DNA from: Thuidium tamariscinum
Taxonomy: Eukaryota; Streptophyta; Bryopsida; Hypnales; Thuidiaceae
NCBI GenBank assembly: GCA_947034885.2
Contig: OX344749.2
Coordinates: 33,351,182-33,415,181 of the forward strand
Direction of reading: 5' to 3'
Length of the DNA: 64,000 nt
The notes under the pieces were generated by a model. It saw only the letters and a list, made by a program, of their open reading frames with translations. It was not told the DNA's origin and did no database searches. A program made the position numbers and the translations under genes. How positions within the stretch are numbered: position 1 is the stretch's first letter; each line of letters opens with the position of its first letter. This document shows positions 58,658 to 64,000 of this stretch, one piece after another.

Positions 58658-59178
58658 GATTAGCATTTTCTTGCAAACGTCATCAATTCTTCTACATTTC
58701 AAATGGCTGACTTGTAACTAAATGCCGCCGGTACTCCCCGTACATTGGTTGTTCTAATCCTGAAGTTGCAGCACTTTTTGTTGAAATCTGACTGCGAAGA
58801 AAACTCGTAAGAATATTGGACCCGACTGTACTCTTCTGTATTCGGAACTGGCGTGTCTGCAGTCGGGGAGCTTCTGCAGTCAGAAATTCCAGAAATTTCC
58901 CTGCCGTGCCTGAAGGGAGCAACCGTAACTTAGTTTGAAGAATTTCCATCATAGAGCATCTTCGCACATTTGAAGAAGTATTCTCGATGGCGAAGATCAA
59001 GAATCTGTACCATTGAAGCCGTTCTTCCAATGTCTTTTCTTCGTCGACGAGAAAAGTGGTCTTGGATCGCTTGGCTGATCACACCATGTTTCTTTAGCTG
59101 AAGCTTTGAATTGGCCGAAGGTGCTCTTGGTTAGGGTTCCGGCTTGCACCTCCTGGGGAAGAACCATTAAACAACAGA
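58658..59178. promoter_or_regulatory. Probable promoter region of the PDF-PPR gene
   Basis: GC-balanced DNA between the TTAA-flanked element and the inferred leader exon. It is open for 112 codons on the minus strand (58692-59030), but that frame has no recognisable motif and no splice support. The transcription start is not fixed. Confidence 0.3.
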
Positions 59179-59425
59179 ATGTCGCGGAGTGAGAGGATTC
59201 CCAGAGATGGTTGTAGGCAGGGGTCGGACGGGCCAGACGCCATTTCCAACGGAGAACAGGATTGCTCAGATTGTGGATCTGAGGACGTCCACTTCTGTCG
59301 TCACTCACGAGATCTTTGGATTGAAAAATCGACTTCTCTGCCTTCACCAACAACGAGTCTTTTGCTTGTGACTCCTGAACAAGATCATCAAAACCCTAAA
59401 CCGGTCGTTGAGTCTCCACTCTCAG
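59179..59425 (+). other. Inferred 5' leader exon of the PDF-PPR gene
   Basis: A strong donor CAG|GTAAGC closes this segment at 59425, and a matching acceptor TTGTTGCAG ends at 60999. An ATG at 59179 opens 82 codons before the donor. Read across the junction that frame stops at CGATAA shortly after, so it is at best an upstream open frame. The true 5' end is unknown. Confidence 0.35.
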
Positions 59426-59539
59426 GTAAGCTTTCGCTAGGGAGCAGGGAAATAATTCCTTCCACATGGCCTTTTCTCTGCAACAAAGTCAAGATTTTGA
59501 GCTTTTGCTTACGATGAGACTTGCGGTTGTTGTGAATTC

Positions 59540-60960
59540 TCTACCTGCTTGGGGGCTGGCTAATTCGAGTTTATCAAATCGGAGGGTAGCACGGACAGAG
59601 TTGGAATGTGGCTTAGAAACTCAATAGGGACGATTCTTATGTGATACTTTATGGCTAGATTGAAGTCAAGGTTCGTTGTCTGTTGTCCCTATGGAGTTTC
59701 ACTTGCAGAAGTTAGGGTTTAGTAATTCGAGACTGAGCTCAGGCACAGTCGAAAGGTAGCTCAAGAACTCGCAGAGATTGATTCTTGTATGATAGATTGA
59801 GGTCAGAACTAAGTTAGGTTAAGGAACTTGTAGTAAATATCGGACGATTTTTCATGACAATCTACTAGTCGATTTATTTTCCTCTTTGTACTCGTTGTTA
59901 AGCGACTTGATGGGTAGAGGCAGTTGCGAGAGAGTATCTAATTCGGAAGCTGCAGATACTGGGGTCGAGGGTTTGTGGTTTAGGGTTTCTTGTTCTTCAT
60001 AATTTGCAATTTTCAGTAGAAGTTTGGATCTGCTCGAGTCCAGTATCTGTTGCAGCGTTCTTGCAGGCTATAGAAGGGTGTAAGGAACTAGAAGAATCTT
60101 AGAGATTGACACATTCACATTCGAAACTTTCTCCGGACCAAAGTCAATTTCTAGTCAAGTTTTCGGAAGCTGAATACATTGGAAGTTGTTTAAACTGATT
60201 TCCAGCTGTTGTTGAAGTTGGTTCTTCCTCCCTGCTTGGATTCTGAGAGGTTAGGGTTTAACAGTGTGGAGAATCGAACAGGCAGTTGAAAGGGAGCAGA
60301 AGACTCAAAGAGATTGTTTCGTATGTGACATATGATATTTTGTTTTCACTGAAGCTTACTATTAAAGCTGCATACATTTGTGGTGGTTGATGTAGAGAAC
60401 TGTTTTCCCTCCGAATTGAGGGTTTAGCAATCTGGGGACAGTTCGCGGAAGTGAGAGAGCGTATACATATGAAGAGGACTGGAAAGTTTGAAGAGATGGA
60501 TTCATGAATGAAATTTGTGTGTGGACTGAAGTGAAGTTCTACTCAACTTCTGGGAAACTGCATTTATTGGAAGTTATTCATGCTGAAGACACCGAGAGAG
60601 CTATACAAAGCTCGCAAGGAACTGACTCAATTGAACAGACTTGAACATATTGACAATCATACATGCTACTTTGTCTCTATGCTGAAGATAAGTTTTGAAG
60701 CTTGCTGCATACATTGGACGTTGCTGATGTCGATGTTGGGGATTGGTGTATCAAACAAGAGAATTTTCTCTTCCTACCTGGAGGTTTAGCAATTTGAAGA
60801 TGAGAACAAAGTCAGTTGAAAGGAGTAGATTGATACTTATCTCAACTTTGACTGAAGGTTACATATGTATGAGGAGTTTCACATAACAGCCCTAGAACAT
60901 TCACTTGAATGGAAGCCGAAGACTTTTCGAGATTCATTCGTTTACTTTCTCTAGATAAGA
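59540..60960 (+). repeat. Degenerate tandem repeat within the leader intron
   Basis: About five or six diverged units of roughly 250-300 bp recur in order: GGGTTTAGCAATTTG, GGCAGTTGAAAGGGAGCAG, ACTCAAAGAGATTG, GAAGTC…TTCT, CTGCATACATTGGAAGTTG and GCTGTTGTTGAAG. They fill most of the intron between 59426 and 60999. Confidence 0.5.
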
Positions 60961-61036
60961 AATTAGATTTTTGTTTATGGTGTTACTTTGTTGTTGCAGA
61001 GGAATCTTTAGATGTCTGTAGATTCCGAGTCTCAAA

Positions 61037-64000
61037 ATGTCTGCATTCATGCTCCTTTTATTACGTCATAAGCAGCAAACGATAAGATATTTGGTGCGTG
61101 GAGCTGGTGCCCAGGTGAGTGGCTGTTGACTTATGGCCATACACCTGTTATACATAATTGGCTAGATGACTTGTGACTTGTCTCGACTGCACCACTATGG
61201 TCAATTAGCAACATGTGGGTCCAGCATATTTAGGTTCCTCCCGCAGCTATATTTGGTATTTAGGGTCTTCCGTTTTCCTCCAATTGACATGACATGAACT
61301 TGGTTGTTTGAACGTTAAACGTGAAATATTAGTACTTGAGTATTTTATGCTCAAATTGCTATTAATGTGTTTTCTGACCCACTGTTGGGATTCTTGTGAT
61401 CAGGATGCATGTGTGACTGGACTCTTGAAGTCTCCATGGCTTATACACCCTTCTTTATTACTGGTCTCGGTCTCCCATGGAAGAAGAAACAGGGGAGAAA
61501 TAAGGTGTTCATCCTCATCAGTTTGGAGGAGACCATCTGTGAGTAGCAATGCTTTAGGTATGTATCAGATGCCCGTCCTCATGGAAAGAAGTGGGTGCTG
61601 TCTGTCTCTTAGAAAGAATGTGACTGACGTGTATGAAGCATGTTCCAGTTGAATCAGGTGAAGCACAGACAATTGGACAAATTTGGGAGGAGTATTTTGT
61701 GGATCCTTCCCAGTGGTGGGACAACAGAGATCGCAAGGTATCTTTAGAACTTTTTGCTGGAACTACCAGTTATTTGTTGTTAGAAAGTTGCGAAATAGTA
61801 AATGAGGAAGCCATCTTTGCTTGCACAAGGTCATGGGCATTTTGGAAAACAACAAGCATATTGTACTCTGTTTTGGGGTGGAGTGAAGGCTAGATAGATC
61901 TTTTTAATTTTTAACAACATATATTCCTTGATCTGTATGCGATATTTGGTGGTTGGTTGTGGTGCCTACAGATGAATCCCCAAGCACCCGACTTTAAACA
62001 CAAGGTAACAAAGAAAGCGCTTTGGGTAGAAGGCTGGTCAACACCTCCATGGGTGAAGGCGATGCTCAAATCGGTGACTCAAAGTAAATTACCATCCCGT
62101 GGTGGTCATCACATCAGCGATTCTCAAGAGATTATACAATCAAATAGGTAATGACATGAAAATGATTCGTCTCCCTTTGTGACAAGAAGTAGGTGCAAAT
62201 TGCCTTGCTATAGATGAAGCTTACATATTGGAGGTGGATCTGAAATCGGCAGTTTGTAATTTGCGTTGTTTGATGGAATATGAAACTTGTGAGTTGGTTT
62301 GGTTTGGGTTTTTTGTGTGCAACATTATTTTCTTTGTTTGCTTTATATTTCATTATGTACGTGTTTATTAGATGCATTTAAAAGTGCAATGACTTCTTGA
62401 GAAATATTGTGGATGCAAGATACATAATACTGAATAGATAACCCAAGTATGTGTAATTGATTGAGTAGAGTTGTTCTCATGAAGAATGTATTGATGAGTC
62501 AGGTTTCCCAAGGGCAATCTTGGCACTTTGCCCTCTAGTGCAAGGAAGGTGAAGGAAGCTGTTCAAGTTGGCGGTGGCAGTATGCACCTGCAAAGTGCAA
62601 AAAATGCGAGTGAAGCCATCGATGTTTTGAATAACCGACTACAACAAGGCATTGCTATAAGCTCGTACATGTATGTTGAAGTTCTGAAGTGGTGCTTGAA
62701 ACAGGAAGATCTTACTATAGTCAAGCAAGTTCATGAGTGCGTCATTGAGAGTGGAATGCAGCAGAATATACGTGTGGCAAACAACCTTATTAGTGCCTAC
62801 ATCAGATGTGGGAGATTGGAAGACGCACGCCGAGTGTTTGATGAACTTGTGGGGAAGAATGTATTTAGTTGGACCAAAATGATTGGAGGCTATGCTCATC
62901 ACAATCGTGCCAAAGATGCAATGGAATGTTTTAATCAAATGCGCAAAGATGGTGTCCAGTCGGATGCAGTTACTTACTTGAGCATCTTGAAGGCTTGTGC
63001 CAGCCCATCAGCTTTAGAATGGGGCAGAGAAGTTCACGCACATATCAAACAGGGTGGCCTTGAATCAGATGTGCGAGTTGGGACTGCACTCCTAAAAATG
63101 TATGCCAAGTGTGGGAGTATCAAGGAGGCCAGGAACACTTTTGATCAGTTGACCTACCGTGATATCATTTCCTGGAATGTGATGATTGGAGCTTATGCAG
63201 AAATTGGCTGTGGTGAGGAAGCGTACGGACTCCTTGTCCAAATGAAACGGGAAGGTTTTAAACCAGATGCAATCACTTTTGTGAGCATCCTGAACGCATG
63301 TTCAAGCGCAGAGGCTTTGGACTGGGTGAAGGGGGTTCACCGCCATGCCCGTAAAGCGGGATTTGAGTCAGATGTACGTGTGGGCAATGCGCTCGTTCAC
63401 ACGTATGCAAAGTGTGGCAATATCGTAGATGCGCGACTAGTTTTTGACAGAATGGGTGGACGCAATGTAGTTACATGGAACGTGATGATTGGCGCATATA
63501 CTGGAAGTGGATTTGGTGAAGAAGCATATCGATTGTTTCTGCAAATGATACGGGAAGGCCTCAAACCAAGTTCAGTCACTTATATGAATATCCTGAAGGC
63601 ATGTGCAAGCACGGGGACTTTGGATAGGGTGAAGGAGATTCACAGACATGCTTTTGAGGCGGGATATGAATCTGATGTGCGTGTGGGCAATGCGTTGGTT
63701 CACACGTACGCGAAGTGTGGCAGTATTGATGATGCGAGACAGGTTTTTGACAGAATGGAGCAACTTGATGTGAGAACATGGACTGTGATGATTGGTGGAC
63801 TTGCACAACATGGGTGTGAGGGTGAAGCCTATGGTCTTCTTCTCCGAATGAAACGGGAAGACTTAAGACCTGACGCATTTACATATGCCAGTATCCTGAA
63901 CGCATGCGCAAGTACAGGGACTTTGGAGTGGGTGAAAAAGGTTCACAATTATGCCCGCGAAGGGGGCTTTGAGTCTGATGTGCGTGTGGGCAATGCTCTG
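61037..64000 (+). CDS. Fusion of OSB-type PDF motif and PLS-class PPR array (partial, runs off the right edge)
   Basis: Coding exons by hand: 61037-61114, 61404-61557, 61658-61737, 61972-62147 and 62503 to the window end. Introns are GT-AG, phases agree, and the frame is open for 662 codons. Residues 1-77 are Arg/Ser/Leu-rich, like an organelle transit peptide (MSAFMLLLLRHKQQ…). Residues 87-135 hold the PDF motif of plant organellar single-stranded DNA-binding (OSB) proteins: W-EEYFVDPSQWWDNR then NPQAPDFKHKVTKKALWV. No OB fold precedes it. From about residue 195 there are at least four P-L-S style PPR triplets with tandemly similar wording (SDVRVGNALVHTYAKCG, WNVMIGAY, FKPDAITFVSIL). PLS PPRs bind organellar RNA one base per repeat, often for C-to-U editing with a C-terminal DYW domain; the C-terminus is outside the window. 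Without the 62148-62502 intron the PDF frame stops at 62149-62151; splicing turns AG|G into Arg and enters the PPR frame. Two separate genes remain the alternative. Confidence 0.75.

Follow-up and report, generated by a model that had tools for sequence, protein, structure and literature searches.

A predicted organellar PPR-DYW editing factor with an N-terminal OSB-type PDF motif in the moss Thuidium tamariscinum

Introduction

Can a motif of organellar DNA maintenance and a site-addressed RNA editor be parts of one plant protein? This question is raised by a stretch of 64,000 nucleotides of the moss Thuidium tamariscinum (contig OX344749.2, positions 33,351,182 to 33,415,181 of the forward strand), which is referred to here as the window. 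Near its end, exons for a PDF motif of the OSB type stand ahead of a long PPR frame. A sequence-only reading of the window had proposed that both are spliced into one protein. In reviews (PMC6963530), the OSB PDF motif is given a length of 50 residues that include Pro, Asp, and Phe, and that of AtOSB1 is reported to be sufficient for the binding of single-stranded DNA (ssDNA). Recombinant AtOSB1 and AtOSB2 are reported to favour ssDNA over double-stranded DNA or RNA (PMC4166229). If such a motif were joined to an RNA editor, the coupling of editing to the nucleoid would become directly testable.

Gene model and reading frame

Judging from the sequence, the exons listed in Table 1 very probably belong to one nuclear gene, which would encode a PPR editing factor of the PLS type, acting in organelles and bearing on its N-terminal side a PDF motif derived from OSB. 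When the five exons are joined, no stop is found in the reading frame. Exon 3 ends with WWDNRDRK at the donor at 61738, and exon 4 opens with MNPQAPDFKHKVTKKALWVEGWSTPPWVKAML; the second half of the motif, its exon ends, and its frame are as had been claimed. At the next junction, the AAT AG that ends exon 4 meets G TTT at 62503 and continues in the PPR frame. The phase compatibility proposed for this junction is borne out by a frame that is open across it in all 21 loci compared below.

In the window's own genome (363 Mb, 19 contigs), exon 5 continues uninterrupted beyond the window to a stop at window coordinate 66812. The PPR frame comprises 1436 codons from 62504 and ends in CSCKDYW, and the model protein has 1599 residues. 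An exon 3 start at 61649, which would give 1602 residues, was rejected, as AG is present at 61647-48 in 2 of the 21 loci and at 61656-57 in all of them.

Table 1. Predicted features of the locus in window coordinates.
Feature	Position	Strand	Description
Exon 1	61037..61114	+	Start Met and beginning of a transit-like N-terminal region; open, in phase with exon 2
Exon 2	61404..61557	+	Arg/Ser-rich, transit-like
Exon 3	61658..61737	+	First half of the PDF motif, GEAQTIGQIWEEYFVDPSQWWDNRDRK
Exon 4	61972..62147	+	Second half of the PDF motif and loose linker
Intron 4	62148..62502	+	Between PDF exon and PPR exon
Exon 5	62503..64000	+	PPR head and PLS array; truncated at the end of the window
Candidate 5' leader intron	59426..60999	+	Donor ranked 1/404, acceptor 1/415 (plant weight matrices)

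Splice evidence within the window

Taken alone, phase compatibility and splice signals are weak support for the junction, and 26 of the 95 GT/AG pairs able to join the PDF exon to the PPR frame leave the frame open. With plant weight matrices, the exon 4 donor ranks 18th of 404 and the exon 5 acceptor 31st of 415, although the latter is the top-scoring acceptor between 62200 and 62600. The best composition change-point lies at 62539 rather than at the exon edge at 62503 and was rejected as a marker of that edge. These ranks and the change-point count against the one-gene model. Because the splice signals of the window are weak on their own, evidence from outside was needed.

Codon preference was scored against stop-free shuffles, which are stricter than plain shuffles; the latter gave better-looking values. 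The 26 codons ahead of Met 62582 have a modest coding signal, their score being reached by 47 of 2000 stop-free shuffles, and the signal of exon 4 is weaker (294 of 2000). Intron 4 contains 38% T and 34% G+C, with 8 to 10 stops per frame. Between 62148 and 62700, neither AATAAA nor any of five AATAAA variants was found, which is weak evidence in plants. A scan of the interval for bacterial-type signals, of little use for plant DNA, gave one promoter-like site (1.5 expected) and no terminator.

Exon structure in paralogous loci

The sample consisted of the window gene and 20 loci fetched with their flanks, these being the first 20 listed of the 67 other loci with a split PDF motif. All 20 show the order of the window gene, namely PDF motif, PPR head, PPR array, and DYW, on one strand. 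In the alignment, GT is kept at the donors of exons 3 and 4, and AG at the acceptors of exons 3, 4, and 5, in 21 of 21 loci; each of them reads open from exon 3 through exon 4 into exon 5. Differences in length from the window gene within these exons are multiples of three in four of four cases, whereas this holds for 14 of 32 differences in the intron between exons 3 and 4 and for 7 of 50 in intron 4. Exon 3 shows no length change across the 21 loci, and exon 4 shows a single one, of 3 bases. The PPR-DYW frames are intact in all 21, with 708 to 1415 residues from the head onward. Such a pattern is predicted by one gene and not by two, and it supports the fusion structure. The exon structure of the model, as far as sequence comparison can establish it, is settled by the paralogues.

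The same loci bear on a different view, in which two neighbouring genes are present: one for a short PDF protein whose frame closes at 62151, and a separate PPR-DYW gene that starts from Met 62582. The frame of exon 4 does meet TAA at 62149-51, and the three bases after the exon 4 donor are TAA in 15 loci, TAG in 1, and TAT in 5, so that a stop stands there in 16 of 21 and an unspliced message would end at this point. The PPR frame has no transit-like start of its own, which had been taken as a sign of fusion. However, P. patens PPR proteins predicted as 'other' have been found in organelles (PMC9459714), and the missing transit-like start is therefore not decisive alone. Against two genes, 5 of the 21 loci have no stop after the donor, and Met 62582 is ATG in 15 loci and is absent from the other 6. 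The exon 5 acceptor is among the sites kept throughout, the length differences upstream of the Met are multiples of three in three of three cases, and the codons ahead of the Met fit the PPR frame.

N-terminus and 5' leader

Exons 1 and 2 together encode 77 residues, among which a composition count finds 11 Arg/Lys, 2 Asp/Glu, and 12 Ser. All 20 other loci contain a match to exon 2, with E values no higher than 5.4e-6. Exon 1 is matched separately in 5 of 20 (L022-L026); in L027, a single continuous match runs across residues 2-61, and the 14 loci L028-L041 match exon 2 only. Codon preference is absent from both exons, since 768 of 2000 stop-free shuffles reach the score of exon 1 and 1837 of 2000 that of exon 2. 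Exon 1 is the least certain part of the model, and the start of the gene is less sure than the rest.

Farther upstream, an ATG-started open frame at 59179-59425 (MSRSERIPRDG...) ends at the strongest donor of the scanned stretch. Joined to the acceptor at 61000, it meets an early stop, and its frame is not that of the PDF exons. It has no Pfam match and may be either an upstream frame or a leader exon.

Origin of the PDF motif

That WWDNR, PDFKHK, and ALW match OSB proteins was at first presumed and was then tested by comparison within the genome. The PDF region has no match in Pfam or NCBIfam, and such fusions could therefore escape routine annotation. PDB sequences gave chance-level matches only, and no relative was found in the viral and prokaryotic contigs scanned, as expected for a plant motif. 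With an E limit of 10, the SSB model (PF00436) does not match the joined exons, and it has no match in 10 forward frames from 59110 to 62151, which agrees with the earlier statement that an OB fold is absent; the scan of those frames gave two chance matches below the cut-off, both outside the PDF region.

In a search of the window's own genome with the SSB model, four matches were obtained at two places, on contigs C1 and C3. At the C1 place (35468243-35468977), two segments that both score above the cut-off make up an OB fold, and a PDF motif follows; no PDF motif was found in the stretches fetched around the C3 place. The C1 motif is identical to that of the window in 25 of 49 residues, and the second half of the window motif matches the place with a tblastn E of 9.9e-9. 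Both motifs are interrupted by an intron at the same position and in phase 0, with WWDNRAKK/PSPKSPDFKHK on C1 and WWDNRDRK/MNPQAPDFKHK in the window. The common intron position indicates common descent of the PDF exons, and these comparisons support homology between the window motif and the OSB PDF motif. Most likely, the PDF exons came from an OSB gene, a donor that we infer, by exon shuffling.

The likeness to OSB proteins, as described in PMC6963530 and PMC4166229, is in the motif of about 50 residues with Pro-Asp-Phe. In contrast, the protein predicted here has no OB fold, carries the motif N-terminally, and continues as a PPR-DYW protein. By its predicted protein, the window gene has an OSB motif but no OB fold, and it is hence not classed as OSB.

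PPR-DYW part and predicted target

The partner of the PDF motif had been read as a PPR array. A PPR frame is indeed present, but it is more than an array, as a full PLS-DYW editing factor emerges beyond the window. Inside the window, exon 5 has room for four full L1-S1-P1 triplets, and a fifth begins before the window ends; they follow one another without gaps, in units of 35+31+35 residues. Over the whole exon, 11 such triplets tile without gaps and are followed by E, E+, and DYW. Pfam matches over the cut-off are PPR_2 (1.3e-188), E_motif (2.7e-22), Eplus_motif (1.3e-9), and DYW_deaminase (2.6e-39). The deaminase of the window gene contains HSE and CVDCH; HSE and C..CH are present in 20 of the 21 loci, and L023 has HCE.

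When the PPR code published for P. patens PPR56 (PMC10482289) is applied, the predicted target of the window gene is 5'-YGnGUnYCnUGnUGnUGnUGn?AnUGn?AnUG. The parsed code strings are all different in the 21 loci, and the members should thus differ in target; the parse misses some triplets (4 were found, for example, in L023 and in L024), and array lengths are stated below from frame lengths. The code positions are not the most variable positions of the repeat (ranks 10 to 19). At the DNA level, triplets 8 and 10 are 99% identical and triplets 9 and 11 are 91% identical, with a period of 606 bases (window coordinates 64784-66000). From this identity, triplets 8-11 appear to be a recent two-triplet duplication inside the array.

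The family in the genome

The PDF motif was searched for in the window's own genome, where 150 of 200 candidates were scored, and the counts are lower bounds. Before the DYW search, the 150 matches were sorted by eye into 68 of class A, 37 first halves, and 45 others. Class A comprises second halves of the motif that are split as in the window, and it includes the window gene (at least 68 loci); each of the 37 first halves adjoins one of these 68. One of the 45 others, C8:11295911, is 63% identical over residues 24-61 in a 41-residue frame and could be read as a second half; no DYW match lies nearby. Class B (loci L003-L021) is a second group with a PDF motif; the frames read there encode a short protein whose N-terminal part includes a hydrophobic stretch and whose PDF motif is unsplit and lies close to its end. 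No PPR match was found within 1.5 kb in 19 of 19.

The search with the Pfam DYW model, in which all 91 first-look candidates were scored, gave 86 matches. Among the listed PDF matches, every one of the 68 in class A is followed on its own strand by a DYW match at a distance of 2083-4741 bases; within 8 kb, the upstream side and the opposite strand are free of DYW matches in all 68. The 45 PDF matches outside class A among the listed 150 have no DYW match within 8 kb at all. At least 68 of the 86 DYW matches come after a class A PDF motif.

For the PPR head, 150 of 596 candidates were scored, and 72 of those listed match at 93 bits or more, the next match being at 71. A class A PDF motif stands 422-836 bases ahead of 68 of these 72 heads. 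Four heads are without a listed PDF motif (C1:52910859, C5:27899084, C1:44071646, and C8:17810170, the last with a stop within the match), which may reflect PDF loss or a pre-fusion state. Eighteen DYW matches have no listed PDF motif; for five of them, the upstream stretch of 2401 bases (four cases) or 1301 bases (one case) was searched, and no PDF match was found; heads C1:44071646 and C1:52910859 belong to these five.

The complete association of class A with DYW among the listed matches is difficult to reconcile with two neighbouring genes, and together with the order, splice sites, and intact frames of the 20 further loci, it upholds the claim that the PDF and PPR exons form one gene. The four heads without a listed PDF motif, an exon 1 matched in few loci, and a linker under little constraint count against this model; even so, two genes are highly improbable, and the one-gene reading is followed below.

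Selection and growth of the family

Two groups were compared: group I, with the window gene and L022-L027, and group II, with L028-L041. In the DYW region, dN/dS is 0.16-0.25 in five pairs with the window gene. The median is 0.26 in group I (20 of 21 pairs, one pair with near-zero dS being dropped) and 0.22 in group II, where the median dS is 0.125 (91 of 91 pairs). Medians over 28 pairs of 8 loci give 0.25 for the PDF part and 1.22 for the exon 4 tail, and the residues ahead of Met 62582 show 0.63. By these ratios, the exon 4 tail and the residues ahead of the Met look like a loose linker.

Many copies appear, on sequence divergence, to be recent. Of the 68 listed class A loci, 23 are no more than 1.5 Mb away from the end of a contig, where 8.7% would be expected from length. 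Contig C4 carries 21, most of them at 20.1-23.1 Mb. Homology between loci extends into the flanks, and 3' of the stop, it ends at widely differing points. A mobile element is disfavoured for this reason, as a unit with fixed ends would fit variable 3' ends less well than segmental duplication does. Among the class A DYW frames of at least 700 codons, most lengths step by about 101 residues, which is one triplet. The family probably grew by segmental duplication together with the gain and loss of whole PPR triplets.

It could be asked whether duplication close to the ends of chromosomes has produced most of the copies as a side effect, so that only a few members work. The crowding toward contig ends and on C4, the youth of group II, the homology into the flanks, and the DYW frames of fewer than 700 codons in 5 of the 68 loci would suit this explanation. 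It is nevertheless unlikely, given that 63 of the 68 have DYW frames of at least 700 codons, all of the fetched frames are intact, dN/dS is low even within the young group, and the code strings, although some triplets are missed by the parse, differ throughout.

Proposed function

Most likely, judging from its predicted domains, the protein edits RNA in an organelle and has gained a further hold on nucleic acid, perhaps at the nucleoid. The N-terminus would direct the protein to an organelle, and the PPR array would bind one RNA site through the PPR code. The DYW deaminase would then convert a C just downstream, 3' of the array, to U. The PDF motif may serve as a second nucleic-acid contact, most likely with ssDNA or nascent RNA at the nucleoid, and such a contact would keep the editor close to transcription. 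This added hold is suggested by the ssDNA binding reported for AtOSB1 and AtOSB2 (PMC6963530 and PMC4166229); their preference for ssDNA over RNA (PMC4166229) is less easily matched to a role in RNA editing. The connection of DNA maintenance with RNA processing that had been envisaged for this locus is one that we infer.

It should be considered that the PDF motif in this protein no longer binds DNA and instead holds on to a partner protein or to the RNA that is edited, or is a mere spacer. The fused partner reads RNA, and the purifying selection on the PDF part suits any binding role. On the other hand, the WWDNR, PDF, and ALW parts are conserved and are common to the OB-fold place on C1, and the sufficiency of the AtOSB1 motif for ssDNA binding, as reported in PMC6963530, speaks for a retained activity. 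This explanation is a serious one, if somewhat short of an even chance.

Restorer-of-fertility PPR clusters in flowering plants are an analogue for the reading of changing targets. By this analogy, the PDF-PLS-DYW genes might be diversifying, nucleoid-tethered, sequence-addressed cytidine deaminases at transcribing organellar DNA, whose targets would go beyond routine editing sites and would change over time, organellar sequences that are selfish or rearranged being examples. Such a role is decidedly unlikely.

Comparison with known systems

The predicted protein shares L1-S1-P1 triplets, E, E+, and DYW with deaminase residues with the PLS-type DYW editing factors of P. patens, as these are described in PMC9459714 and PMC10482289. 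The table of 107 P. patens PPR proteins in PMC9459714 includes 10 DYW proteins and names no PDF or OSB part; here, most DYW matches of a plant genome follow a PDF motif. Added parts, some of them nucleic-acid binding, are known from P. patens PPR proteins with RRM (AtPPR4 type), SAP (pTAC3 type), SMR, NYN, CBS, or LAGLIDADG. However, in the table of PMC9459714, these are P-type proteins without DYW, whereas the added part here is a PDF motif.

The architecture had been thought new. No report of a PDF-PPR protein was found in the open-access literature, and the window gene belongs to a large family in its own genome and is not one odd gene. As Pfam has no match to the PDF region, it is quite possible that published proteomes hold the motif unnoticed. 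PPR proteins with added modules are known; what appears to be new, on the predicted proteins, is the PDF motif as an added module on PPR-DYW, in a strikingly large family. Since the arrays seem to grow and shrink by whole triplets, the family offers a natural series for the evolution of PPR specificity.

Organellar sequences were also noticed in the assembly. Several pieces of cox1, in order, lie on contig C18, which suggests that it is a mitochondrial contig. Further cox1 fragments, some with stops, are found on C1, C2, C4, and C9 and are probably nuclear copies.
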